From an uncultured Lachnospiraceae bacterium (lineage in GTDB: Bacteria; Bacillota; Clostridia; Lachnospirales; Lachnospiraceae), in NCBI GenBank assembly GCA_902766955.1, contig CACXFM010000141.1, positions 1 to 34,051 on the forward strand: a stretch of DNA of 34,051 nt, written 5' to 3'. Positions 1 to 12,165 of this stretch are shown piece by piece. Each line of letters begins with the position of its first letter. Within the stretch, counting starts at the first letter, position 1. The position numbers and the translations under genes were made by a program. The notes below the pieces were generated by a model. The model worked only from the letters and a program-made list of their open reading frames with translations. It had not been told where the DNA came from and ran no database searches.

Positions 1-791
1 AGTGCGTACTGCTCTTCCGGATAGTTGATGGTGAGCTTGCCGTCGTGGACTTCCAGCTCGCCTTCCATGCCGCAGAGGCAGCAGATCGCATGTGTGGTGC
101 CGGGCTCGATATAGAAGTTATTCATATGGCAGTGCGGGCACACACCTTCGGGACCCTGCCACTTCGCATTCGGAATATCGTTTGCCGCATTGCCCAGATT
201 GACGCCGATCTGATGGGCTCTGGCCAGTGCTGCGTCGTCCATCAGGATGGTCTTGGACCACTGGAATCTGTCGTTGTCAATGATCTTCCACATGGGGCTC
301 ATGGCCAGAACGCCGTGTCCGAGCTGTACGAGTGTGCCCCAGTCGGATCCGCCGACGCCGATGAAGGAAATGACCTTGTCCTTTAAGAGTCTCGGGTCGA
401 CACCCGGGCCGCCGTGCTCTTTGCTGAGCTTGTCTGCAATGAAGAGGTTGCCGCGGTCCATGGAGGGGCCGAAGCGGTCACAGATCGTGTGGATGATGCC
501 GGGGACGCCCATCTCGAAAATGGGGGACGCCATAATGATGCCGTCCGCGTCCAGCATTTTGTTGAGCAGCCACATGAAATCATCTTTCTGCACGCAGATG
601 CGGCCTTTGCCGCCCATCATGGCCTTGACGCAGGCGATACAGCCGGTACAGGGCTTGATTTCAACCTTGTGGTGCAGGTTGATGAACTCGATTTCGGCGC
701 CGGTTTCCTGCGCGCCCATCAGAGCTTCCTTGCACATGGCGTCATTGGCGCCGTTAAAAGTTCCTGATGAAATGCCGAGAATCTTTGCCAT
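1..791 (-). CDS. Flavodoxin-fold NAD(P)H-dependent FMN reductase-like protein with C-terminal zinc ribbon (partial)
   Basis: The gene reads leftwards from ATG at 791, with the RBS GGAGGT 5 bases upstream, and leaves the window before its stop; 263 residues are visible. The N-terminus (MAKILGISSGTFNGAND) is a flavodoxin-like beta strand and phosphate loop of the WrbA/NADPH-dependent FMN reductase superfamily, expected to bind FMN. Residues 48-66 hold C48-x2-C51-x2-C54-x11-C66, resembling the cysteine motif of iron-sulfur flavoproteins but with a longer last gap, so a cluster is possible but not shown. Near the C-terminus C218-P-H-C221 and C237-C-L-C240 form a zinc-ribbon-like pair, unusual for this family. 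It is the last visible gene of the redox cluster, 58 bases after the NuoF-like gene. A one- or two-electron carrier or flavin reductase for the cluster is inferred; the substrate is unknown. Confidence 0.8.
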   Translation of the reverse strand, partial: MAKILGISSGTFNGANDAMCKEALMGAQETGAEIEFINLHHKVEIKPCTGCIACVKAMMGGKGRICVQKDDFMWLLNKMLDADGIIMASPIFEMGVPGIIHTICDRFGPSMDRGNLFIADKLSKEHGGPGVDPRLLKDKVISFIGVGGSDWGTLVQLGHGVLAMSPMWKIIDNDRFQWSKTILMDDAALARAHQIGVNLGNAANDIPNAKWQGPEGVCPHCHMNNFYIEPGTTHAICCLCGMEGELEVHDGKLTINYPEEQYA

Positions 792-849
792 TTGTTACCT
801 CCTTTTCAATCGCTGTGATTCCATCCTGTTCCGCAGACAGGGAGAGCGT

Positions 850-2139
850 TTAAAATTTTCCTACCTTGGTGAGTTTCTTCGGAACTTTGACCGATCCGTT
901 ATTGACGACAATCGCCTCTTCATCGCAGGCGGAGACGCATTTTCCGCAGCTGGTACACATATCCTGGTCGATCATGTGGATAAACTTGCGTTTTCCTTCG
1001 ATTGCCATCTCGTCACATTCGTCGATACAGTCGCCGCAGGCGGTGCACTTCGCCGGATCAATCACATACGTCTTCTTCGAGAATGCGCTGCACACGCCGG
1101 CTGGACACTTCTTTTTGACGATATGGGTCAGCAGTTCTTCGCGGTTACATTCCACGGAAGACACCGCGCATGCGGCCATGTTCTGCCCGAAGGAACAGAA
1201 TGCCCCGGCCGTAATCAGCGGACCGATGTCCATGACCATATCCAGGTCTTCTTTTTTGCCTTTTCCTTCCGTGATTCCCTTGAAAATCTCTGCCATGTGC
1301 CAGCTGCCCTCGCGGCAGAGGACACATTTCCGGCAGGACAGATCCAGCGCCTGCTTCATGAGCCGGGCCGTCTGATCCGCCATGCAGTCCTTTTCTCCGA
1401 AGGCTCTGACGGAATCAAACATGGATCCGGTGCCGATGGCGCAGCTTTCCGGGTTCCGGGTAAAGGTGCCTGTCACCCCGCCGGCCAGCACGCCTTTGGG
1501 TGCGTCGGCTCCGGCTGCCTTGAGAAGCTCACCGACGGTCGTGCCCGTGGGAACCTCCGCGACGGATGCGCCGTCACCGGTTCTGATGATCACGATCTTT
1601 GTCTCGGTGTACCCCGGTTCAGCCATGGCACAGAGCCTCAGCAGGTCTTCCGCTCCCACGGTGACCGTGGGGAGACCCTTATATCCCTGTGAAGGGAAGG
1701 CCCTGTCCAGGGGACATGATCTGAGTTCGCCTGTTTCAAGTATATGGAAGAGGGCCGAGTCCTCCCGGAGGACGGGAGAACATTCGAGCCGGACGATCTC
1801 CGCGCCTTCCGGAGCCCAGCTGATGTCTTCCGGCGCGGCGACGATGATTTTCTCCGCGCCGATCGCACCGGCCAGCGCTGCCGCTGCGGCTTTCATTCTC
1901 TCTCCTGCTCTCTCCGTGAGTTCGGCGTTGAATCCGGACCCCGGTTCTTCCGAGACCAGGTCGATGATCAGAACGGCTTCTTCCCTGGAAGCGGCGTCTT
2001 CGATCTGCTTTTTAAGATTCTGCCCGTGTCTGTTGAGAAAGTCCGCTTTCTTTGCGGATTCCGGACTCAGGTCCGGTGCGGGGGCGTCTGTCAGCATAAT
2101 CCATGCCGCCAGATCCCTGAGGTCTGCAGTCTTCATCAT
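850..2139 (-). CDS. NuoF-like iron-sulfur protein with degenerate FMN/NADH domain and two C-terminal 4Fe-4S motifs
   Basis: 429 residues from ATG at 2139 (a second ATG follows directly; GGAGG lies 10 bases upstream). From about residue 120 it follows the 51-kDa NADH dehydrogenase/HydB fold: an ED-S-A-L segment, a G-L-P-T-V strand near 155, an SLBB-like domain (about 180-225) and the NuoF 4Fe-4S domain with C269, C272, C275 and C315. The tail adds C365/C368/C371/C375 and C395/C398/C401/C405, two ferredoxin-type 4Fe-4S motifs, as in HydB and HylB. The first 120 residues do not show the glycine-rich FMN/NADH-binding motifs of NuoF, and no thioredoxin-like 2Fe-2S domain precedes them. It therefore looks like an Fe-S relay subunit and not an NADH dehydrogenase (inference). 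It lies 3 bases after the NuoG/GltD-like gene, so the two are almost certainly co-translated. Confidence 0.85.
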   Translation of the reverse strand: MMKTADLRDLAAWIMLTDAPAPDLSPESAKKADFLNRHGQNLKKQIEDAASREEAVLIIDLVSEEPGSGFNAELTERAGERMKAAAAALAGAIGAEKIIVAAPEDISWAPEGAEIVRLECSPVLREDSALFHILETGELRSCPLDRAFPSQGYKGLPTVTVGAEDLLRLCAMAEPGYTETKIVIIRTGDGASVAEVPTGTTVGELLKAAGADAPKGVLAGGVTGTFTRNPESCAIGTGSMFDSVRAFGEKDCMADQTARLMKQALDLSCRKCVLCREGSWHMAEIFKGITEGKGKKEDLDMVMDIGPLITAGAFCSFGQNMAACAVSSVECNREELLTHIVKKKCPAGVCSAFSKKTYVIDPAKCTACGDCIDECDEMAIEGKRKFIHMIDQDMCTSCGKCVSACDEEAIVVNNGSVKVPKKLTKVGKF

Positions 2140-2142
2140 GCC

Positions 2143-4284
2143 TTATACGCCTCCTTCCGTGTAGTCATTCCAGAATTTCTGCGGTTTCAGGTCACATCTC
2201 AGATCGCACTGCAGACATCTGGCCGCCTCGCAGGAGGCCAGGGTATCGTCAAAACCGAGATCCATGGGCCCGCATGTCTGCCAGTCACGAACCCGCTCGG
2301 GAACGGGCACAACCCTGGGAGCGGTTCTCTTAAGTTCGCCGAAGTTTTCGATCACGCCGATGTGCGGGTCACGGACCTGCTCATCCGCCAGGTGTTCCTC
2401 TATGCAGCCGTCGCCGCCCAGATATACATCAATGGCCGAAATGGCCTCTCTCGCAAATGCAATGGCAGAAATCACGGAACGGGTTCCGGTGACAGCGTCT
2501 CCGACTGCCCAGACTCCTTCCACGGATGTCTCGCCGTGATCGCCTTTGGATGCAATATAATTTCCGTGTGTCAGTTCCAGACCGAAAGCCTCGGGATCCA
2601 TGGGGATCGTGGGGCGCTGGCCGACCGCAAAAATCACGGTGTCCGCGGGAAGCACTTCCTCCGTGCCTTCCAGTTTGTCAAATACCATGCGGCCGTTTTC
2701 CTTGCGGAAGTTGCCGACCTTCTGGATCACGACACCGCTGACATGTCCGTTCTCCCCCTGAATCTCGGGGAACGTCCGGGAGTTGTGAAGCACAACGCCC
2801 TCCTCTTCGGCCCAGGCGCGCTCTTCGTCGGTTGCCGTCATGGCGTCGTAGGCTTCCAGACATGCCATGTCGACGGTTTCCGCACCCAGACGGAAAGCTG
2901 CGCCGGCACAGTCGACGGCCACGTTTCCGCCGCCCAGGATGACGACATGTTTCCCGACGGAAGCTTCTCCCGTCTCAAAGCGGCGGAGGAAATCCGTATT
3001 GACCTGAACGCCGTCCAGATCATTTCCGGGGATCGGGAGCCTCACTCCGTCATGCGTGCCGACGGATACGAATACAGCATCAAACCCTTCCTTCAGGAGC
3101 GACGGCGCATTGGCGACTTCCGAGCCGGTTTTGACGGTGATGTCGTTTCCTTCCAGAATATCCGCGATTTCCCTGTCCAGAGTCTCCCTGGGCAGGCGGT
3201 AGGACGGGATGCCGTAGCGGAGCTGTCCGCCCAGTTTTTCGCGCGCTTCGAAGACCGTGACGGAATGTCCCAGCTTCGCGCCGTAATATGCGGCCGTGAG
3301 GCCTGCAGGCCCTCCGCCGATCACGGCAATCTTTTTGCCTGTTGCAGGCTTATGGAAAGCTCTCTTCTTCCACTCTCCGTCGTCATGTTCCGCCGCAAAG
3401 CGCTTCAGATTGCGGATGGAGACCGGTTCATTCAGATAAGCATGCTTGCACTCGGATTCGCAGTCGTGAACGCAGATGTATCCCAGTGAATGCGGGAACG
3501 GAACCTTCTCCCGGACCGTCGCGTTTGCCTGTGCGTAATTTCCCTGCTTAATGAAGCGGATATAGCGCGGCACATCAATATGAGCCGGACATCCGAAGCG
3601 GCAGGGCACATATCCGTCCTCTCTGGTGCGGCCCTCGATTCTGTCCATGATCTCCTTGTGTTCGCGGATGGAACCGGTCGGACAGACTTCCACGCAGGCC
3701 GTGCAGAATCTGCAGTTTGCATGAATAAGGGAATCCCCGTTGACGACGACCCGGAGCCGGCCGTCCACTTTATCAAATTTAATTGCTCCGACGCCTCTCA
3801 GCTCTTCGCAGGCTCTCACGCACCTGCCGCAGAGAATGCAGCGGTACATCTCATGAAGAATAATCGGATTCTCCGTATCCGCTTTCACATTGATCGGATT
3901 GGCCTTCAGCTTTCTTCCCGTGTCCCCGACGTACTGGGAAATGGATGCCAGCTGGCATTTTCCGTACTTCGGACATCCGGTGCACTCCGCCGGGTGTGTT
4001 TTGAACATAAAATCACAGCTCAACTTACGCACGTTTTCCGCTGTCTCGTCATGTGTGTCAATGACCATCCCGTCTTCGCATTTTGTGATGCATGACGTCA
4101 CGAGTCCTTCGACGCCTTCCTGTCTGACGACGCACATGCGGCAGGAACCGGTGGGATGAAGGTTGTCATGGCTGCAGAGGTGCGGAATATAGATTCCGTG
4201 GTCCAGGGCAGCCTGGAGAATCGTCTGCTCCGAATCGGCGGTGATGACCCTGCCGTCGATTGTCAGTGTGACTTTTTCACCCAT
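2143..4284 (-). CDS. NuoG-like/GltD-like fusion: Fe-S NAD(P)H-dependent flavoprotein oxidoreductase
   Basis: 713 residues from ATG at 4284 (AGAGG upstream). Domain order: 2Fe-2S ferredoxin (C37, C48, C51, C65); NuoG-type His-Cys 4Fe-4S motif (H97, C101, C104, C110); two 4Fe-4S motifs (C149/152/155/159 and C191/194/197/201); then a GltD/NfnB-type half. That half has an N-terminal Fe-S region (C228, C232, C270, C274, C278), an FAD loop GGGPAGLTAA near 322, an NAD(P) loop ILGGGNVAVD near 448, a C-terminal GVWAVGDA FAD motif, and a closing CEAARCLQC segment. Known relatives sit in NAD(P)H-dependent formate dehydrogenases, hydrogenases and glutamate synthase small subunits, where they pass electrons between NAD(P)H and Fe-S partners. 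Here it is the obvious pyridine-nucleotide module, since its NuoF-like neighbour lacks that site. NADH or NADPH preference cannot be told. It is cytoplasmic, with no signal peptide. Confidence 0.92.
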   Translation of the reverse strand: MGEKVTLTIDGRVITADSEQTILQAALDHGIYIPHLCSHDNLHPTGSCRMCVVRQEGVEGLVTSCITKCEDGMVIDTHDETAENVRKLSCDFMFKTHPAECTGCPKYGKCQLASISQYVGDTGRKLKANPINVKADTENPIILHEMYRCILCGRCVRACEELRGVGAIKFDKVDGRLRVVVNGDSLIHANCRFCTACVEVCPTGSIREHKEIMDRIEGRTREDGYVPCRFGCPAHIDVPRYIRFIKQGNYAQANATVREKVPFPHSLGYICVHDCESECKHAYLNEPVSIRNLKRFAAEHDDGEWKKRAFHKPATGKKIAVIGGGPAGLTAAYYGAKLGHSVTVFEAREKLGGQLRYGIPSYRLPRETLDREIADILEGNDITVKTGSEVANAPSLLKEGFDAVFVSVGTHDGVRLPIPGNDLDGVQVNTDFLRRFETGEASVGKHVVILGGGNVAVDCAGAAFRLGAETVDMACLEAYDAMTATDEERAWAEEEGVVLHNSRTFPEIQGENGHVSGVVIQKVGNFRKENGRMVFDKLEGTEEVLPADTVIFAVGQRPTIPMDPEAFGLELTHGNYIASKGDHGETSVEGVWAVGDAVTGTRSVISAIAFAREAISAIDVYLGGDGCIEEHLADEQVRDPHIGVIENFGELKRTAPRVVPVPERVRDWQTCGPMDLGFDDTLASCEAARCLQCDLRCDLKPQKFWNDYTEGGV

Positions 4285-4310
4285 CTTTATGCCTCTTATA
4301 TAATATGCTG

Positions 4311-4339
4311 GCGTCTCCCGGATGAAGCCCGGGAGACGC
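4311..4339 (-). promoter_or_regulatory. Strong intercistronic hairpin inside the redox operon
   Basis: A perfect 11-bp stem (4311-4321 with 4329-4339) and 7-base loop fill most of the gap between the FAD oxidoreductase stop and the NuoG/GltD-like start. On the minus strand no T-run follows it (CAGCATATTATATAAG), so a simple intrinsic terminator is unlikely. An RNA stability or processing element that sets the ratio between the first cistron and the rest is more plausible (inference). Confidence 0.65.
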
Positions 4340-4350
4340 TGTGGTTATGA

Positions 4351-5805
4351 TCAGTTTTCGTCTGCGTATTCCGCGGCACCCGAGCCTGCGAAACGGCCCG
4401 TGTTGAGGCAGTAGCCCATCGTGTTGCCCGGCAGAAGGAACATATAGGAGTCCCCGTAGATCGTGCAGGTGTCGGTTCCGGCCGCATACAGTCCCGGAAT
4501 CGGTTCCCAGTCAGCCGTGAGGACCTGGCAGTCTTCGTTGATCTTGATGCCGCCGAGTGTGCCGTATGCGCCGGGACGGAACTTCGCCGCATAGAAGGGC
4601 GCTTTCTCGATCGGCTTCATATATTTGGAGGGCTTATAGAACAGGGTGTCGGACGAGTCGCACATGTCGTTGTACTCGTCGATCGTCTCTTCCAGCTGCT
4701 CCGGATCAATGTCGCACAGTTCGGCGAGTTCTTCGATCGTATCTGCCTTTACCACATCCGGATTGCCGTTTGCGATGGAGTTTTCGATCGCTTCAAGCAG
4801 ATCCGAGACGTCATCCGGATGATGGACGAAGTTGGTTACATCCACGCCCTTCTTCATGTAGTATTTAGCGATCTTGGAATCGATGATGGAGAAGCCGATG
4901 GCATCCTTCTGGAAGGAAATCGCGTTTCCGCAGAAGGTGGTGTTCTGCATCTCTTCTTCGTTGATGAAGCGCTTGCCGAGTTTGTTAACCATGAGGTTGG
5001 GCTGCATGAATACGGCGGGAATGCAGTCCGGGCCGGCATCGGAATTCGGCAGAATATACATCATTTCAACGTTCATCGGCGTGGAACCCGCACCGGCTTC
5101 CTCGGCCATATGGATGCCGTCGCCCTTGAGTCCGGGAATCGCGAAGTTGAACATGTCTCCCTGGAATGTGTAGCCGGTCCGCTCCTTGATCATCTGCGGG
5201 TTATCGCCGCATCCGCCGGTGGCGATGACGACGGCTTTGCAGTTGCACTGGACTTCCTCTCCCGTGCTGTCAACGCCGATGACGCCGCAGACTTTGCCCT
5301 CCTCATCCTTGAGGATTTTCTTGGCGGGAGTTTCCATGAGGAATTCGGCTCCGTTTTCCGCTGCGTAGTCGCGGATGGCTTTATTCATAATGGCGCCGCC
5401 GTTGCGTCCGATGCCGCCGTTGACGGCCACGATGTGCCAGCTGGCATTGGACTTGGGGAAATACTTGTAAGCACCGGCAAATTCGACGCCGCAGGATTCC
5501 TCCAGCCACTTAATGGTGCCGGCAGAATTTTCGAAATACTTCTTGACCATGCGGGCGTCGCTTCTCCAGTGTGTATACTCCATGAACTGCTTAAATGCAG
5601 TTTCAAGATCGATGTCGACCATCATATCCATCTGCTGCTTGGTTCCGATTCCTAAGGGGCCCATGCCCATATTGGCGGCACCGCCGGAAACATTGGCTTT
5701 CTCAAAAACAACTACTTTTGCACCATCCTCTGCAGCCTGTGCGGCAGCAGCAAGTCCGGACGGGCCCGACCCGATGACGACAACGTCAGCTTCAAATGTT
5801 TTCAT
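4351..5805 (-). CDS. FAD_binding_2 family oxidoreductase (fumarate-reductase/3-ketosteroid-dehydrogenase fold), substrate unknown
   Basis: The start is taken at ATG 5805, which gives 484 residues opening MKTFEADVVVIGSGPSGLAA, the FAD-binding Rossmann motif; in-frame codons further upstream have no RBS and no conserved sequence. Other family marks are GGAANMG near 41, VVIATGGCGDNP near 192, GKRFINE at 277-283 and IPGLYAAGT near 436. There is no signal peptide, heme motif or FMN-attachment domain, so it is cytoplasmic and must get electrons from partner proteins. By remembered alignment with flavocytochrome c3 fumarate reductase, H365, R402, H504 and R544 correspond to L252, Q287, Y414 and L457. 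Dicarboxylate binding and the arginine proton donor are therefore absent. Tyrosines at 414, 450 and 454 could act instead, as tyrosines do in 3-ketosteroid dehydrogenases (inference). As first gene of the cluster it is the likely catalytic subunit for reducing an unsaturated organic compound. Confidence 0.88.
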   Translation of the reverse strand: MKTFEADVVVIGSGPSGLAAAAQAAEDGAKVVVFEKANVSGGAANMGMGPLGIGTKQQMDMMVDIDLETAFKQFMEYTHWRSDARMVKKYFENSAGTIKWLEESCGVEFAGAYKYFPKSNASWHIVAVNGGIGRNGGAIMNKAIRDYAAENGAEFLMETPAKKILKDEEGKVCGVIGVDSTGEEVQCNCKAVVIATGGCGDNPQMIKERTGYTFQGDMFNFAIPGLKGDGIHMAEEAGAGSTPMNVEMMYILPNSDAGPDCIPAVFMQPNLMVNKLGKRFINEEEMQNTTFCGNAISFQKDAIGFSIIDSKIAKYYMKKGVDVTNFVHHPDDVSDLLEAIENSIANGNPDVVKADTIEELAELCDIDPEQLEETIDEYNDMCDSSDTLFYKPSKYMKPIEKAPFYAAKFRPGAYGTLGGIKINEDCQVLTADWEPIPGLYAAGTDTCTIYGDSYMFLLPGNTMGYCLNTGRFAGSGAAEYADEN

Positions 5806-6043
5806 TTCCCTTATGACTCCTTTCATTTCTGTAAGTCTATTATGTCCCGCCGCGTTTGAGAGCAGGATGATAATACATGTAAATAAACCAGATGGATCAT
5901 GAGGCAGGGATATAGTAAGTGGCATCTGTCAGCGGATGCCTGCTATATGATTGTGTGATAACACAGACTCTGCCGGTGAAAAGGAAGCGGATAATGTCAA
6001 AATATTTTTGCAGAGATGAGATAGCTTGACATATATATAGAAA
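5806..6043 (-). promoter_or_regulatory. Long 5' leader of the redox operon with several inverted repeats
   Basis: About 230 bases separate the predicted start point (near 6037) from the ATG at 5805. On the minus strand this AT-rich leader contains a hairpin GGCATC-8-GATGCC (5921-5940), a palindrome TGTGT-4-ACACA (5952-5965), and AAAGGAG 11 bases before the ATG. It matches no riboswitch class that I recognise. A regulatory leader is inferred from its length and structure; no other gene is supported between 5806 and 6207. Confidence 0.4.
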
Positions 6044-6072
6044 ATTATATTTGTTTCATGGATGCCAGACAA
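6044..6072 (-). promoter_or_regulatory. Sigma-A-type promoter of the redox operon
   Basis: On the minus strand -35 TTGTCT (6067-6072), a 17-base spacer and a perfect -10 TATAAT (6044-6049). It is the only strong promoter pattern in the gap and lies downstream of the HD-gene terminator, so the cluster is probably its own transcription unit. Confidence 0.65.
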
Positions 6073-6288: not shown

Positions 6289-6711
6289 TCACATGGTATT
6301 CGCGAAGGAAGTCTCGAGCATATCCAGCGCTGCATTGTATCTGGCCCGCAGCTTCTCCGGGCAGCCGTCTCTCAGATTGTCGCGCAGATCCGCCAGTTTG
6401 ACCGTGACGGCATCGGGATGCCTGCGGATGCTCTGAATATAATCATAATACGATGTGTCAGGCTTTCTGGTCAGAATCGTGACAATATCGACATATCTGC
6501 GTTCGATACCGGCATTCAGCAGTTCTTCTTCCGTGGTGTCGGTATCCTCAATTACGTCATGCAGAATGCCTGCGATCCGCAGGCCCCCGCTCAGAGAATT
6601 CATAACACGGATGGGATGATGAATATAATCAACTCCCTGCTTGTCGACCTGTCCCGCGTGTTTCTCCTCGGCAATTTTAAGCGCAATCTCAAGCTGCTTT
6701 TCTTCTGTCAA
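6289..6711 (-). CDS. Small HD-domain hydrolase, MESH1/SpoT-hydrolase type
   Basis: 140 residues from TTG at 6711, preceded by AGAGGG about 7 bases upstream; no nearby ATG would keep the conserved N-terminal helix. The HD fingerprint of (p)ppGpp hydrolases is complete: HHP (H31/H32), ILHDVIEDTD (H51, D52 metal ligands; E55, D56 catalytic pair) and VKLADLRDN (D108 metal ligand). There is no synthetase, TGS or ACT domain, so this is a stand-alone small alarmone hydrolase or a related nucleotide phosphohydrolase acting in the cytoplasm. It is monocistronic, between its own weak promoter and the terminator at 6208-6252. The window also holds a synthetase-only protein at 24798-25625, so alarmone making and breaking may be split between single-domain enzymes. 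Its true substrate cannot be told from sequence. Confidence 0.85.
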   Translation of the reverse strand: MTEEKQLEIALKIAEEKHAGQVDKQGVDYIHHPIRVMNSLSGGLRIAGILHDVIEDTDTTEEELLNAGIERRYVDIVTILTRKPDTSYYDYIQSIRRHPDAVTVKLADLRDNLRDGCPEKLRARYNAALDMLETSFANTM

Positions 6712-6874: not shown

Positions 6875-8371
6875 TCACATTTCATTGCGGTCATAAATGA
6901 CCACGGGCGTGCCGTCCTCGATGAGATCGTACAGCTCAACGACCTGGTCAAACGGCGTATTGATGCAGCCGTGACTGCCGTTATTGTAGTAGATCGATCC
7001 GCCGTATGAGGACCTCCACGAGGAATCGTGGATGTAGACACCGTCTTCATTCAGCATAATCGCATAATTCACGAACGTGGAACCGTAGCTCCCGTACATG
7101 GTGTAATCCGTGAGTTTGCCGATTACGTAGAGAATTCCGGTCGGCGAACGCCGCTCCGGTGTCATCATGCCGGTCACGACGTCCGTCGAGACCATGAGTT
7201 CCCCGTCCTGATAGTACCACATGTGCTGCTGGTCAATACTGATCTCAATGTATGTCGATCCGATATCATCGCCGTCGGGGGTGATCCGTCTGCCGGTCCG
7301 CTCCCAGACTGATTCGATTTCCTGCGACTGACCGCTCAGGATGGCGTTTCGGATTGCTTCTCTCGTGTCGTGCGGCTCCAGGATGAATCCGTATGTGTCG
7401 TCATCTCCTCCGCCGAGCGTGAGCGTGTCCCCTGCACTTGTGGTGAACGAACGCGGTTTCTTATAGGTATCGTATTTTTGAGCCAGGCCGTCCACGTAAC
7501 TGTTCAGCGCATCCTCAGAGAGCGTGACGGTGCCGTCGGAGGGATTAAACTGAAGCCAGTCAAAGAACGTCTTTTTGTCGATCTGTATGGAAGACCCGTA
7601 AAGATCCATGGTGATGACGGCGTTCTGTATATCGTTGATGGTTTTATAGGCCTTCTGGATGGACTCATCCTTCGTGTGGACCAGCGCTCTTTTGTAACAG
7701 CCCTGTCCCGCGAGGTCGATCTCCGTCTCCCCACTCTCCACCGCGTCTCTCACGGCCGTCAGAACGGCCTCCGGATCGAGGCGGTTTCCGTCGTCGGAAG
7801 GAACCAGGACGTACTTTTTTTTCTTTTTGCTTTTGACGATGGCTGCATCCTTCGGGTCCCTGATGCCGTCCCCGGAAATACATTTGAGCCCCAGAATTTT
7901 CTCGCGGAGCTTTTCCTCGCTGTATGTAAAACCTTCGCCGATTTCGAGTTCTTCCGGACGGAACAGATTCACCGCCCACAGCCTGTGATCCTGCGACTGC
8001 TGCAGTTCTTCCGGTGTCCGGGCCCAGATGTGCCTGTAGTCGAGGTCCTTATACGCAATTGTTTCCGTCGAGCCGTCCAGTGTTTTCAGCGTGATGACCT
8101 TGTCCGTATCAATCTTCTCCACAGAGGCGGTGACCTCCTGCGGAGTCAGGCGGCTGATGTCCTGACCGTTGACCGTTGTGTTGGGCAGAAACACTCCGTC
8201 CAGTTTCTGATACTGGTAATAGTATGTGACGCCGGCGGCAGCAACTGCCGCCGTCACCAAAACAACACACGCAGCGGCTTTTTTCCCCCTGCGTGCTTTT
8301 ACGGACGGGTCCTTCCCGGCAGCACCGGACCGTCTGTCCGGCGCCGCAGATCCGCCATTTTTTTTCTTCAT
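6875..8371 (-). CDS. Membrane-anchored L,D-transpeptidase (YkuD domain) with peptidoglycan-binding-like N-terminal region
   Basis: 498 residues from ATG at 8371 (GGGGAG about 10 bases upstream). A short basic cytoplasmic tail with several lysines and arginines precedes one transmembrane segment at about 33-50, so the rest lies outside the cell. The middle (about 55-350) resembles the PG_binding_4-type repeats that precede clostridial YkuD domains. The YkuD domain starts near 374 (YIEISIDQQHMWYY) and has H448 in VYIHDSS and the SHGCIN catalytic motif with H467 and C469. The family forms 3-3 peptidoglycan cross-links or attaches proteins to the wall, and is insensitive to most penicillins. The gene lies 44 bases after an SGNH hydrolase that also acts on the cell surface, probably in one operon. 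It should be a functional enzyme, since all catalytic residues are present. Confidence 0.93.
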   Translation of the reverse strand: MKKKNGGSAAPDRRSGAAGKDPSVKARRGKKAAACVVLVTAAVAAAGVTYYYQYQKLDGVFLPNTTVNGQDISRLTPQEVTASVEKIDTDKVITLKTLDGSTETIAYKDLDYRHIWARTPEELQQSQDHRLWAVNLFRPEELEIGEGFTYSEEKLREKILGLKCISGDGIRDPKDAAIVKSKKKKKYVLVPSDDGNRLDPEAVLTAVRDAVESGETEIDLAGQGCYKRALVHTKDESIQKAYKTINDIQNAVITMDLYGSSIQIDKKTFFDWLQFNPSDGTVTLSEDALNSYVDGLAQKYDTYKKPRSFTTSAGDTLTLGGGDDDTYGFILEPHDTREAIRNAILSGQSQEIESVWERTGRRITPDGDDIGSTYIEISIDQQHMWYYQDGELMVSTDVVTGMMTPERRSPTGILYVIGKLTDYTMYGSYGSTFVNYAIMLNEDGVYIHDSSWRSSYGGSIYYNNGSHGCINTPFDQVVELYDLIEDGTPVVIYDRNEM

Positions 8372-8415
8372 AATAATAAAACTCCCCTTTTAACCCCTTG
8401 AAAAAAACGGTTCTT

Positions 8416-9702
8416 TTACGAAGCCTTTTCCGCTTCGGGCTTTTTCCCGCGGATGACCTCAAGCAGTTCTCCCGTATCGGCGAATCTGTACTCCCCGCCA
8501 TCGAGCACGGTGTCCCCTTCGGCCATCTTGCCGATGTCGTCAAAATAGTAAATCTGACCGTCAATCTCGTACCAGCCGGTGAGGGCGTGCCCGTCTCCGG
8601 CGAGATAGAAGGTGCCGGTGTCGGGATCCGTGTACCAGCCGCTGTCGATGATACCGTCGTCGCCGGCGTGATACCGCCTGCCGTCAGCCCTGAACCACCC
8701 GTGTACCAGTATACCGCTTTCATCCGCATAATACCAGTACCTGCCGTCAGATATCCAGCCGGTATGAATGACGCCTTCCCCGTCAGCCGCGTAGGTATTG
8801 CCGCCGTCATGAATCCATCCGGTCATGACTTCGCCCTCCGGATTAAAGAAATAGAGCGTGCCGTCTATATTCTGCAGACCGGATGCAGGTTCCCCGTCAA
8901 CATAATAGATTTTTGTATCCTGCAGAGCCTGCCATCCCGTATAGCCCGGAACCTCCTCTCCGGATTCCGCCTCTGATTCCGTCCCGTCATTCCATGCCGT
9001 GTCGGCGGGCAGCTCGGCGGCAGACACCTCTCCCTCCGTGTCGGCGGCCGTCAGGGTCGTTCTGGGGAGGCCATCATCTTCATAGTCCTCTTCGGAGTAA
9101 GGATAATAGCCCGCCGCCTCGACGCCGGAAATAATCAGGTCAAAGATCGTTCTGTACGTATCGCCCGTATAATGAAGCCCGTCTACCGTGGCAAAATTGC
9201 CGATGATGGCGGAATACAGATCCAGGTAATAGACATCCTGCGAAAGCAGCGGCTGAATCGTGTTATTCCAGTAGACAATGTCGGAATTATGTTCCTCGTG
9301 GTTCAGGGCATCATCGACAGGTGTGATGGACGCATAGAATGTCTGGGCCCCTCTCGCTCTCCATTCCGCCGCTTTCTCGTTGATGGCGGCGGCATACTGG
9401 GGCACACGGAACTGGTCGACGACGTCATTGACGCCGAGCGTGATGACGACTGCCGTGCCCGGCCCCACATCTCCGTCAATCGTGGGGAACCCCTCCGACA
9501 TCATCCAGAGATACCCCATGCCGATTTTGTAGCACCAGGACACTCCGGCATCGCCGACAAACTGGTGCATCTCTTCGGCCCTGGAATCACCCAGGATAAT
9601 AATACCGGCGGGTGCCGCGGAAACAAAACGGGTGCCGAATCCCGCTGCCGCAATCAGGGCGGCAAGATAAAGATAAATTTTCAGAATCGCTGTCTTTTTC
9701 AT
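8416..9702 (-). CDS. Secreted SGNH/GDSL-type hydrolase with C-terminal cell-wall-binding repeats
   Basis: The start is ATG 9702, giving 428 residues, because a signal peptide (basic MKKTAILK, hydrophobic 8-22, cleavage near 29-31) follows directly. The SGNH residues are GDS (S40), a GVND block (N92) and DGLHY (D174, H177), consistent with an esterase or deacetylase that removes acyl groups from surface polysaccharide or peptidoglycan. Residues about 180-235 are an acidic, low-complexity linker. From about 240 to the end come roughly eight aromatic repeats of the choline/cell-wall-binding type, for example GWYEIDGQIYYFDDIGKM. These hold the enzyme on the wall, as in LytA-like proteins. It precedes the L,D-transpeptidase and is divergent from lexA. 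The actual ester substrate is unknown. Confidence 0.9.
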   Translation of the reverse strand: MKKTAILKIYLYLAALIAAAGFGTRFVSAAPAGIIILGDSRAEEMHQFVGDAGVSWCYKIGMGYLWMMSEGFPTIDGDVGPGTAVVITLGVNDVVDQFRVPQYAAAINEKAAEWRARGAQTFYASITPVDDALNHEEHNSDIVYWNNTIQPLLSQDVYYLDLYSAIIGNFATVDGLHYTGDTYRTIFDLIISGVEAAGYYPYSEEDYEDDGLPRTTLTAADTEGEVSAAELPADTAWNDGTESEAESGEEVPGYTGWQALQDTKIYYVDGEPASGLQNIDGTLYFFNPEGEVMTGWIHDGGNTYAADGEGVIHTGWISDGRYWYYADESGILVHGWFRADGRRYHAGDDGIIDSGWYTDPDTGTFYLAGDGHALTGWYEIDGQIYYFDDIGKMAEGDTVLDGGEYRFADTGELLEVIRGKKPEAEKAS

Positions 9703-9754
9703 GAAGCAAAGTCCCTTCGGAAACAACTTAAAAACGTCTGCTGTCTCAACAGTG

Positions 9755-9785
9755 ATTGTAACACGAAAAGGCGCGTACAAACGCG
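9755..9785 (-). promoter_or_regulatory. Extended -10 promoter of the SGNH hydrolase gene with overlapping inverted repeat
   Basis: The minus strand shows TGTTACAAT, an extended -10 (9755-9763), with no good -35. A perfect inverted repeat CGCGT-ACAA-ACGCG (9772-9785) covers the -35 position and is a candidate operator. Confidence 0.45.
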
Positions 9786-9827
9786 AAGATTTTGTGAACA
9801 GCTTATCAGCCGGAACGGGAAATTGAT

Positions 9828-9857
9828 TTGTCGAAAGCCTCACCGGCATGGTAAACT
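9828..9857 (+). promoter_or_regulatory. Candidate promoter of lexA
   Basis: TTGTCG (9828-9833), 18 bases, TAAACT (9852-9857), with a TG extension before the -10. No Bacillus-type SOS box (GAAC-4-GTTC) was seen between 9703 and 9902. Confidence 0.4.
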
Positions 9858-9902
9858 GGAAAAAAAGAAAGACCGGAACAATCGGGTAGAGGAACGGTGC
9901 AT

Positions 9903-10523
9903 ATGGACTGCGAAAATATTTCAGCGAGACAGAGAGCGATACTTGACTATCTTAAGCGGACTATTTCGGAAAAGGGCTATCCGCCCTCCTTCCGGGATAT
10001 CTGTGAGGCGGTGAACTTAAAATCCACGGCCTCCGTACACAAACACCTGACGGAGCTTGAACAAAAGGGCTATATCAGGAGGGACCCCCTGAAGCCCCGC
10101 GCGATCGAGATCGTGAAAGACGAAGAGCCGCCCCGCCGGACAGAGGAGATCGCGGACATCCCGCTTCTGGGCCGTGTGGCGGCCGGCACTCCCCTGCTTG
10201 CGGCAGAGAATATAGAAGAATACTTCCCCCTGCCCGTCAGTTATCTGCCGGACCGGGAAGTCTTTATGCTGTCCGTGAAGGGCGACAGCATGATCAAGGC
10301 GGGCATCCTTGACGGAGACCGGATCATTGTCGCCAGACAGGAAACCGCGACCAACGGGGATATCGTGGTGGCGCTGATCGAAGATTCCGCGACAGTCAAG
10401 AGATACTACCGGGAGTCCGGATATATCAGGCTTCAGCCTGAAAACGACCTGCTGGAACCGATCATTGTCAGAGATCAGATCCGAATCCTGGGAAAAGTAA
10501 TCGGCGTGCTCCGTCTGCTCTGA
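9903..10523 (+). CDS. lexA: LexA repressor of the SOS response
   Basis: 206 residues from ATG 9903. A GTG at 9897 is in frame, but only 4 bases from the AGAGGA ribosome site, against 10 for the ATG. The N-terminal winged helix (about 1-65; RQRAILDYLKRTISEKGYPP and the ASVHKHLTELE recognition region) binds DNA. The C-terminal S24 peptidase half has the self-cleavage bond A94-G95 in RVAAGTP, the nucleophile S129 in VKGDSM and the general base K166 in ATVKRYY, so RecA-stimulated autocleavage should work. LexA represses DNA-damage genes and usually itself, but the operator is not recognisable here. It is divergent from the SGNH gene and followed by an exported WG-repeat protein about 100 bases on. 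Confidence 0.97.
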   Translation: MDCENISARQRAILDYLKRTISEKGYPPSFRDICEAVNLKSTASVHKHLTELEQKGYIRRDPLKPRAIEIVKDEEPPRRTEEIADIPLLGRVAAGTPLLAAENIEEYFPLPVSYLPDREVFMLSVKGDSMIKAGILDGDRIIVARQETATNGDIVVALIEDSATVKRYYRESGYIRLQPENDLLEPIIVRDQIRILGKVIGVLRLL

Positions 10524-10623
10524 CTTAATGTCCGACGATTTATGGACAATGCCGGGCGTATGTAGTATATTTGATATAACTTTTTAATAAAATCATACGA
10601 TTTTCAACAGGAAGGAGATGCTT

Positions 10624-12165
10624 ATGATGAGAAAACGCATTGGGGTTGTCTGCCTGACTGCATTCATGCTGCTGCAGGGATGTGTGCCGGCCGCGGCCGA
10701 TTCAACAGTGACCCAGCTGTCAGCCCGGGATCTGATCCTCAACCGGTATACCGACGTACTCGGCTTCCGCGGAAAGGACTCGAATCTGTACGGCCTCATT
10801 GACGCGGAAGGGAATCCGGTTACGGAAGCGAAATATTCCTATCTGTCCACAGTCTCCCAGATGCCGTATTTCAAAGTGGAGGTTCCGGATTCTGCTGACG
10901 GGATCCACAACAACGGTCTGATTGATGATCAGGGGAATACGATCATTCCTCCCGAATATGCGGATATTTCCGTCATATCGGACCGCTGGTCCGTCGGCAT
11001 CATGCTGACGCCGTCGGGCGCGGATGAGAAGGACTATACATACTCGGATCTCAGTTCCGGCGATAAATCCTTCTACAGAATCGATACGGTTGATTTTTAT
11101 TTCAGAGGAGAAAAAGTCGGCACCTTGTCGCGCTCCGAATATGACGGTTCCGTGACAGCGCACGGAGACTATATCTGCGTCGCCGACCGCAAAAAGGCCA
11201 GGCATTTCTACAACAGCAGCTTTGAGGAATCGCCTGTGGCAGCCGAGTCTTCTTCGGAATATGAGACCAAATACAAGAACGGCAAGACCTTCTATACCCA
11301 TAACGGAAGCGGCGAGGCCGCGTTTACCGAAGGCTGCCCTCTGACACCTGAGGAAGTGGACTCTGCCTTTATCTATCGGGAGGGAGCCGTTTACGATCTG
11401 CAGGGAACCGAAGTCTTTAAGACGGCTCAGAATTATGATTCTATGAGAGACTTCACAGGCGGCTACGCGGTCGTTTCCATGAACGGACTGAAGGGTCTGA
11501 TCGATCAGGAAGGGAATGAGGTGATTCCCGTCGAATACGACGAACTCGGCTACTACGGGGTTCAGCCGTTCCAGAACGGCTATATCAGCGCGGTGAAAGA
11601 CGGCAAGTTCGGATTCCTTGACGAAAACGCACAGGTAAGCTGTGATTTCGTATACAGTAAGGATGCCGTCCGCGATTATTCGCCCTTCGCGAAGATCCAG
11701 AACCTTGACGGCTCCGTCATCGTCTTAAGCGCCGCCGTCGGGGAACTACCCGAGCATTACAAGGAAGTGACATTCCCGGCTTCTTCCGGCAGCGTCTGCT
11801 TCATCGGACAGAACGACGCCAACGAATATTCGCTCGTGGACCTGTACGGAAATACGATCATTCCCTACAGCGATAATTATATCGACGTCAATGCGGCCGG
11901 AACGGTCGCTACCGTGAGGACGGATTACGGTGAGTATGAAATCCACCGCCTGGATCCCGCGGCGGGAAATCCGGATTCCGCAGCCGAAACTGCCGAAGAC
12001 GAGTCCGGAAGCTGGACCTGCGTAAACGGCCATGAAGGAAATACCGGCAACTTCTGCTCGGAATGCGGTGCGCCGAGACCGGCCGTGTGTCCGTCCTGCG
12101 GATACGAATTTGAGGGAGAAAAGCCGAACTTCTGCCCCAACTGCGGAGCAGACTTAAGCGAATAA
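10624..12165 (+). CDS. Exported WG-repeat protein with C-terminal double zinc ribbon
   Basis: The start is ATG 10624 (or the adjacent ATG 10627), because AAGGAG ends 6 bases before it; the ATG at 10618 overlaps the ribosome site. The 513-residue protein opens with a signal sequence containing LLQGC (possible lipobox, C20) and PAAAD (possible signal peptidase I site near 25). At least five WG-type repeats follow, such as GLIDDQGNTIIPPEY and GLIDQEGNEVIPVEYDEL, which fold as small beta units of unknown ligand. The last 50 residues hold two zinc knuckle pairs: C466/H470 with C478/C481, and C489/C492 with C504/C507. That ribbon type is common in cytoplasmic proteins and odd outside the membrane. 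An inverted repeat AAAATC-4-GATTTT (10589-10604) lies just before the RBS. The function is not known; a surface binding role is inferred. Confidence 0.85.
   Translation: MMRKRIGVVCLTAFMLLQGCVPAAADSTVTQLSARDLILNRYTDVLGFRGKDSNLYGLIDAEGNPVTEAKYSYLSTVSQMPYFKVEVPDSADGIHNNGLIDDQGNTIIPPEYADISVISDRWSVGIMLTPSGADEKDYTYSDLSSGDKSFYRIDTVDFYFRGEKVGTLSRSEYDGSVTAHGDYICVADRKKARHFYNSSFEESPVAAESSSEYETKYKNGKTFYTHNGSGEAAFTEGCPLTPEEVDSAFIYREGAVYDLQGTEVFKTAQNYDSMRDFTGGYAVVSMNGLKGLIDQEGNEVIPVEYDELGYYGVQPFQNGYISAVKDGKFGFLDENAQVSCDFVYSKDAVRDYSPFAKIQNLDGSVIVLSAAVGELPEHYKEVTFPASSGSVCFIGQNDANEYSLVDLYGNTIIPYSDNYIDVNAAGTVATVRTDYGEYEIHRLDPAAGNPDSAAETAEDESGSWTCVNGHEGNTGNFCSECGAPRPAVCPSCGYEFEGEKPNFCPNCGADLSE

Follow-up and report, generated by a model that had tools for sequence, protein, structure and literature searches.

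What a soluble relay of iron–sulfur (Fe–S) clusters delivers its electrons to, when it is encoded beside a lone flavoenzyme, is the question raised by four adjacent genes of an uncultured Lachnospiraceae bacterium (assembly GCA_902766955.1, contig CACXFM010000141.1). The whole contig of 34,051 nucleotides, one of 294 from a genome that is 86% complete, was analysed and is referred to below as the window. All four genes lie on the minus strand within bases 1–5805, where an initial annotation of the sequence had placed them, with intergenic gaps of 66, 3 and 58 bp, and they encode a FAD_binding_2 reductase (FAD2), a NuoG–GltD fusion protein, a NuoF-like protein and a homologue of flavone reductase (FLR). 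The reading put forward here, to which we give about an even chance, is that the four products would form a soluble complex in which an NADH relay feeds FAD2 as a reductase of flavonoid C=C bonds (flavanone or chalcone), and perhaps feeds FLR as well. The initial annotation had left the substrate of FAD2 at "not a dicarboxylate", and the gene linkage described below now allows flavonoids to be proposed as the substrate class.

The FLR gene (1..791, minus strand) has 263 of its 315 codons inside the window; contig C188 of the same assembly, which overlaps the window's first bases by 87 bp, carries the remainder, and a truncated gene was thus rejected. The window part matched the solved FLR of Flavonifractor plautii (PDB 7d38, E 5e-104), which was also the sole match of the joined 315-residue protein among solved structures at E ≤ 0.001 (E 1e-117), with 176 of 307 aligned residues identical (57%). 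The protein has the FMN_red fold with a C-terminal tail, together with identity of at least 30% and coverage of at least 80% relative to the F. plautii enzyme, the thresholds of the homologue search in PMC7862272. The equivalents of Gly106, Trp149, His271 and Ile275, residues for substrate and FMN in which mutations impaired FLR, are retained, and of these the Trp, His and Ile show no variation across the 29 FLR-like proteins of the gathered loci (the window's included), while Met10, Ser14, Lys92 and Thr279 of the F. plautii protein are replaced by Thr, Ala, Met and Glu, respectively, and Lys282 falls in a gap. According to the available sections of the FLR paper (PMC7862272), the enzyme hydrogenates the C2–C3 bond of flavones and flavonols, and all 11 further homologues picked there were active on apigenin. 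The fourth protein, which had been annotated as a flavodoxin-fold partner with a zinc ribbon, does possess a CxxC–CxxC ribbon; it is, however, a homologue of a substrate-reducing flavone reductase rather than a mere carrier, and is predicted to reduce flavones itself.

The other three genes constitute a conserved core. A search for NuoG–GltD loci confirmed 164 stretches, of which the best 80 were retained and 79 loci kept, and 41 of these (L001–L041) encode a NuoG–GltD at least 50% identical to that of the window. Of the 41 loci, 38 have FAD2 (or its end) and 38 have the NuoF-like gene, the missing cases being at contig ends. In sampled genomes, with cut-offs of E ≤ 1e-150 for NuoG–GltD and E ≤ 1e-30 for FLR, NuoG–GltD was found in 12 of 392 genomes of the window's order, at 17 places, with FAD2 within about 3 kb at 17/17; in a second order it was found in 7 of 375 genomes, with FAD2 in six of the seven regions fetched. 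Moreover, the NuoF-like protein and FAD2 form a single open frame in G392 (the same locus as L021), G371, G506 and G707. This co-occurrence and these fusions define the core, referred to below as the module, as NuoG–GltD, NuoF-like protein and FAD2, and it is found in gut and rumen Clostridia. The four-gene neighbourhood that the initial annotation expected to be conserved is therefore upheld for three genes, with FLR a frequent but not universal companion.

The module is linked to genes of flavonoid and phloroglucinol metabolism. FLR itself was found in 11/392 and 8/375 genomes of the two orders; over both sets, 12 genomes hold FLR together with NuoG–GltD, 7 hold only one, 7 only the other and 741 neither (Fisher p 3e-17, a guide only, as the genomes are related). 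Whole genomes offered 24 module places, and a marker survey covered 23 of these, the window included and G262:C30 left out. FLR-like genes were found at 17 of these places, the phloretin hydrolase family at 7, DPGC or TAL at 6 and DgpA/B/C-type genes at 10, so that any flavonoid, phloroglucinol or C-deglycosylation marker occurred at 20/23 (19/22 without the window) versus 0/20 control regions. These counts are to be read with the design of the survey: regions of 10.8–32.4 kb were set against controls of 20 kb, three of the 20 controls came from module-free genomes (G350, G481), two places duplicate gathered loci (G392 = L021, G308a = L031), and the references came from the same loci, so that L001, L002, L025, L031, G308a, G335a and G335b partly match themselves. 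Most regions were also drawn with the FLR places known, and those of G218, G205, G266, G371 and G506 are long enough to include FLR, which favours the FLR count.

The markers themselves match their families well. One DgpA matches the solved structure of DgpA (E 2e-168), the accompanying DgpB corresponds to Pfam CGDB and the DgpC matches solved C-deglycosidases; the phloretin hydrolases (Phy) belong to PF18089. The phloroglucinol genes (SDR, Cyclase, BKACE and 3-hydroxyacyl-CoA dehydrogenase, 3HCDH) were assigned by family and context without a reference sequence, and their families fit the phloroglucinol-degradation enzymes described in the available part of PMC10470551. Some arrangements are especially telling: SDR–cyclase–BKACE–3HCDH–HxlR–FAD2–NuoGltD–NuoF in Agathobacter ruminis JK623 (L031), MFS–DgpA–DgpB–DgpC–FAD2–NuoGltD–NuoF–FLR-like in G335 and G093, and PGR–DPGC–TAL–CoA transferase–Phy–FLR-like–FAD2–NuoGltD–NuoF on a single strand in G093 and G193, with parts in G335 and G262 (all of one genus). 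In G506 and G707 the order is FLR-like–NuoGltD–NuoF/FAD2–Phy, with NuoF/FAD2 fused in both, and in G371 Phy adjoins the fused NuoF–FAD2 gene, an FLR-like gene lying about 10 kb away. Nine of the 41 loci have a close FLR, 53–83% identical to the window's, in the vicinity of the module.

Several observations weigh against a flavonoid role for the module. The marker figures are lower among the 41 loci (FLR-like 14, DPGC/TAL 2, Dgp 1, any flavonoid marker 17), partly because the contigs are short. The module places are not independent, since G093, G193, G262 and G335 belong to one genus and G205, G218 and G266 to another. In whole genomes, the FLR-like genes that stand close to the module are just 28–36% identical to the window's FLR, a distance comparable to that of the Clostridium ljungdahlii FLR, which is 29.69% identical to the F. 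plautii enzyme and whose deletion has been tested in print, as far as the available text shows. At the cut-offs used, 7 of the 19 genomes with NuoG–GltD lack FLR, although five of them hold a lower-scoring FLR-like gene nearby (one a fragment), and 7 of the 19 FLR genomes lack NuoG–GltD. Pairs of FLR and chalcone isomerase genes (G350, G187, G266, G205, G481, G535, G590) stand apart from the module, and NuoG–GltD gave no match at the cut-off in G350, G187, G481, G535 and G590; FLR in these five genomes must therefore use another donor, and the module was rejected as the universal donor of FLR. Neither phloretin hydrolase nor chalcone isomerase was found in the window's own genome at its 86% completeness, suggesting that its pathway may end sooner or take another course; phloretin hydrolase likewise had no match in the five genomes of the first search, while the same approach recovers the family elsewhere. 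In addition, paralogues of FAD2 exist outside the module.

A different division of labour would make the module chiefly the electron donor of FLR, with FAD2 an accessory or acting on a different substrate. The available text of PMC7862272 states that FLR is unable to use NAD(P)H and that its electron chain "remains to be explored", so that its donor is missing in print, and FLR adjoins the core both here and in numerous relatives. All 29 FLR-like proteins, as well as the crystallised FLR, carry, along with the ribbon, four cysteines spaced CX2CX2CX11-12C, recalling the compact motif CX2CX2CX5-7C of iron–sulfur flavoproteins (Isf; available part of PMC3164229), through which FLR could accept electrons from the Fe–S relay. 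The crystal paper, in its accessible sections, reports FMN only, and the FLR spacer of 11–12 is longer than the 5–7 of Isf; however, the section on purification makes no mention of an anaerobic step, and searching the paper's text for cysteine, sulfur or Fe–S gave no hit. FLR may thus carry a labile [4Fe–4S] cluster. Since the published enzyme takes no electrons from NAD(P)H, an FLR branch drawing on the same relay is plausible. Nevertheless, that supplying FLR is the main purpose of the module seems rather unlikely, given that it is FAD2 to which the NuoF-like protein is fused in four genomes, with no FLR fusion seen in the open reading frame (ORF) tables checked, that at 6/23 module places the stretch examined contains nothing FLR-like, and that FLR occurs without the module in 7 of 19 genomes.

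FAD2 (4351..5805, minus strand; 484 residues, Pfam FAD_binding_2 E 2e-56) is read from a start at 5805, which is preferred over an alternative in the same frame at 5925 because of a Shine–Dalgarno sequence before 5805 and the family alignment. Its AlphaFold2 model (pLDDT 89) matches flavocytochrome c3 (Fcc3), urocanate reductase and ketosteroid dehydrogenases. In the alignment, Gln, Pro and Phe stand in for Arg402, Glu378 and Arg381 of Fcc3, which we take to form the proton relay of fumarate reduction; the His pair of the Fcc3 HHTMGG motif becomes Tyr-Gly and the Arg of GANR becomes Tyr, His504 and Arg544 of Fcc3 presumably being carboxylate-binding. PDB titles mention Arg402, Arg381, Glu378 and His505. 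Within the FAD2 family, Gln287, Tyr414 and Asp452-Ser453-Tyr454 are invariant in 50/50 sequences, and we presume a resemblance of the Tyr/Thr pattern to ketosteroid dehydrogenases. A fumarate reductase of the Fcc3 type was rejected because the catalytic residues are substituted, and FAD2 does not appear to be a dicarboxylate reductase of known type, which agrees with its earlier description as a stand-alone, non-dicarboxylate enzyme except that in four genomes it is fused to the NuoF-like protein.

Which flavonoid step FAD2 might catalyse is suggested by its neighbours. In the known pathway, flavone is converted via flavanone and dihydrochalcone to phloroglucinol, and reductive ring opening is assigned to Fcr, also called enoate reductase (available parts of PMC11868195, PMC10470551 and PMC11170127). 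The module stands with FLR-like and Phy genes at seven places, where Fcr would be expected, which makes FAD2 a natural candidate for the flavanone/chalcone ring-opening step. Fcr-type genes were sought through the Oxidored_FMN domain (PF00724) in a main search of 17 genomes, with G193, G262 and G707 outside it; in a later search two of nine queries (L225 and L233) were off-frame ORFs, and the main search carries the conclusion. No Oxidored_FMN match was found on the module contig in G371 and G506, the nearest in G335 is 12–13 kb off, and in module-free G481 and G535 such a match lies 1.2 kb from a Phy match. Against the candidacy, Oxidored_FMN genes are present in 15 of the 17 genomes. One of them is 4–5 kb away from the module in G093, another stands at about 4 kb in G193, and the wider clusters of both G218 and G266 contain such genes too, which could be the source of Fcr activity.

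A related possibility is that FAD2 reduces hydroxycinnamates or vinylphenols, the flavonoid linkage then reflecting general polyphenol islands with esterases. The closest named family is indeed vinyl phenol reductase (VprA, NCBIfam NF053717), a further point against flavonoids, but FAD2 scores 326 bits, far below the curated cut-off of 600, and thus falls outside the family; among 120 listed of 3651 homologues, the only names are FAD-dependent oxidoreductase and fumarate reductase flavoprotein subunit. CocE-type hydrolases occur in 12/41 loci and at 1/23 module places, whereas phloretin hydrolase, DPGC/TAL and Dgp genes point to flavonoids, and hydroxycinnamates are carboxylates, yet the carboxylate ligands of Fcc3 are replaced in FAD2. 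We therefore consider a VprA-like role quite unlikely.

How electrons would reach FAD2 is indicated by the two relay proteins. The NuoG–GltD fusion (2143..4284, minus strand; 713 residues) combines a NuoG-type [2Fe–2S]/[4Fe–4S] domain with a GltD-type FAD/NAD(P)H domain (Pfam Fer2_4, NADH-G_4Fe-4S_3, Fer4_7, Fer4_20, Pyr_redox_2). It holds ligands for one [2Fe–2S], one His-Cys3 [4Fe–4S] and two ferredoxin-type [4Fe–4S] clusters, as well as five GltD-type Cys, and these ligands together with Glu477 are invariant in 48/48 sequences. The NuoF-like/HydB-like protein (850..2139, minus strand; 429 residues, Pfam NADH_4Fe-4S and a 4Fe–4S dicluster domain) retains the NuoF fold and ligands sufficient for three [4Fe–4S] clusters, bringing the two proteins to 7 to 8 [4Fe–4S], in line with the "up to about eight" counted initially. 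Complex1_51K is not among its Pfam matches, and the glycine-rich FMN/NADH-binding loop, which we take as the test for FMN in NuoF, is missing from the window's copy and from 46 of 46 NuoF-like copies, a loss that the initial annotation had not noted; ten NuoF-like copies are short. With the FMN motif absent, NADH most likely enters at the GltD-type FAD. From there, electrons would pass through the NuoG-type clusters to the clusters of the NuoF-like protein and on to the FAD of FAD2. This enzyme would reduce a flavonoid at a C=C or C-ring bond, turning flavanone or chalcone into dihydrochalcone, as part of the anaerobic breakdown of flavonoids, and the FLR homologue encoded alongside would carry out the preceding conversion of flavone or flavonol into flavanone. 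That the proteins form a complex, that NADH is the donor, which way the electrons flow and what the substrate is are what we infer from these features, and the multi-subunit NAD(P)H relay claimed beside the flavoenzyme is borne out by the conserved neighbourhood and by the fusions to FAD2.

The initial annotation also called flavin-based electron bifurcation conceivable, in which NADH would reduce a flavonoid and ferredoxin simultaneously. The bifurcating complexes Nfn-ABC, StnABC and HydABC are indeed among the closest relatives of the electron-transfer subunits with solved structures, and ene-reduction is exergonic enough in principle. However, the module lacks the glycine-rich loop that marks BfuABC-type bifurcating NADH modules, bifurcation at NuoF was rejected for want of the FMN motif, and no NuoE-type gene was seen among the ORFs of the window cluster, leaving the GltD-type FAD as the sole possible site. 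Bifurcation is thus very improbable.

A broader scheme, which we consider doubtful, is that the module represents a second soluble, respiration-like route of flavonoid breakdown. The NADH relay with its flavin-less NuoF would power first FLR, as a hidden iron–sulfur flavoprotein, and then FAD2, as a flavanone/chalcone reductase unrelated to Fcr; in some relatives, thiolytic cleavage of the dihydrochalcone would yield ATP and take over from phloretin hydrolase, a wasteful enzyme. In L001, L002, L021, L027, G218 and G205, the same stretch encodes a thiolase and its DUF35-type partner, an acyl-carrier-like protein and Pta-like and butyrate-kinase-like (Buk) products; the partner in G218 is Pfam zf-ChsH2, and the acyl-carrier-like protein is PP-binding in the three copies tested. 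L004, L007, L008 and G138 hold AcpS-, Pta-, Buk- and CocE-like genes. Thiolase–DUF35 pairs form or cleave aryl ketones, PhlACB and BbsAB being examples, and dihydrochalcones are aryl ketones; by this analogy, thiolytic, ATP-yielding cleavage may take place in the thiolase-bearing relatives. No thiolase of that kind was found in the window's own genome, in a search without a positive control.

Several loci (L001:1-2298 and 2342-5930; also L002, L004, L007, L008, L010) have a CocE/NonD (S15) hydrolase gene and, upstream of the module, Pta- and butyrate-kinase-like genes, with AcpS and a lipase in most; the L001 hydrolase begins, by eye and tblastn, with acyl-carrier-like repeats, although Pfam PP-binding was not matched at E 1e-5. 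AraC-type regulators of about 800 residues, with a C-terminal half that looks glycosidase-like by eye, stand beside the module or FLR (L041:3499-5904; L152, L154, L159, L160 and similar). In module-free genomes a protein of 464–480 residues adjoins FLR (L190:8149-9588, L167:10564-11955), the L190 copy with an LVIVD-repeat match. A small membrane protein recurs near FLR genes (L091:2673-3134, L001:12619-13197, L002:11477-11956, and the FLR loci of G187 and G266); it has no Pfam match in the L001 copy tested and is possibly an uptake or membrane partner. On contig C188, a small membrane protein follows the window's FLR gene and precedes a betaine-type ABC transporter (by eye).

Upstream of FAD2, a sigma-70-like promoter candidate (6044..6072, minus strand; 10/12 match) lies about 240 bp before the start codon. 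The single promoter claimed initially therefore has a site, but seven such sites occur in the 9 kb scanned versus 5.0 (sd 2.6) in shuffles, no excess, and one promoter ahead of the cluster is plausible only. Beyond it, the window encodes a small HD-domain protein resembling the RelA/SpoT hydrolase domain (6289-6711). Further along (6875-12165), reading of the sequence alone suggests proteins of L,D-transpeptidase type and, with cell-wall repeats, of SGNH type, as well as a repressor resembling LexA.

Flavones and flavonols are major dietary plant compounds, and the first enzyme of their breakdown by gut bacteria was published without its electron donor; an FLR homologue beside a full predicted NADH-to-flavin relay makes this donor question directly testable. 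FAD2 is a candidate second solution to the ring opening otherwise credited to Fcr, and, if this is true, surveys of flavonoid degraders by Fcr homologues would miss the carriers of the module, including many rumen and gut Lachnospiraceae. The system had been taken as possibly undescribed, and no published description was found in the literature searched, which mostly did not reach subscription journals; the nearest named family, VprA, stays under its cut-off. The dgp operon papers (PMC8563793, PMC8398226), in their accessible parts, mention accessory genes of unclear function and no such module, a comparison that did not extend to the sequence of strain PUE.

Among known systems, the FLR of F. 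plautii (PDB 7d38–7d3b; PMC7862272) resembles the window's in sequence and in its full length with the C-terminal tail; its locus tag adjoins that of chalcone isomerase, whereas the window's FLR is encoded with an NADH relay and FAD2. Compared with Fcc3 fumarate reductase, urocanate reductase and 3-ketosteroid dehydrogenases, FAD2 has no haem domain, and the Arg402, Arg381, Glu378 and HHTMGG His pair of Fcc3 are replaced. Fcr would act at the same predicted step as FAD2 and has phloretin hydrolase and FLR neighbours in common with it. However, Fcr is an NADH-dependent FAD/alpha–beta-barrel oxidoreductase (available part of PMC11868195), while FAD2, like the other three window proteins, has no Oxidored_FMN among its Pfam matches and is predicted to depend on the relay. 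Nfn-ABC (9bov), StnABC (8oh5) and HydABC (8a6t) share with the module the NuoG-type and GltD-type domains and the NuoF/HydB fold with a C-terminal dicluster ferredoxin domain; in contrast to these, the module has its NuoG and GltD domains fused into one protein, a NuoF-like subunit free of the FMN motif, and a FAD_binding_2 reductase as the partner.

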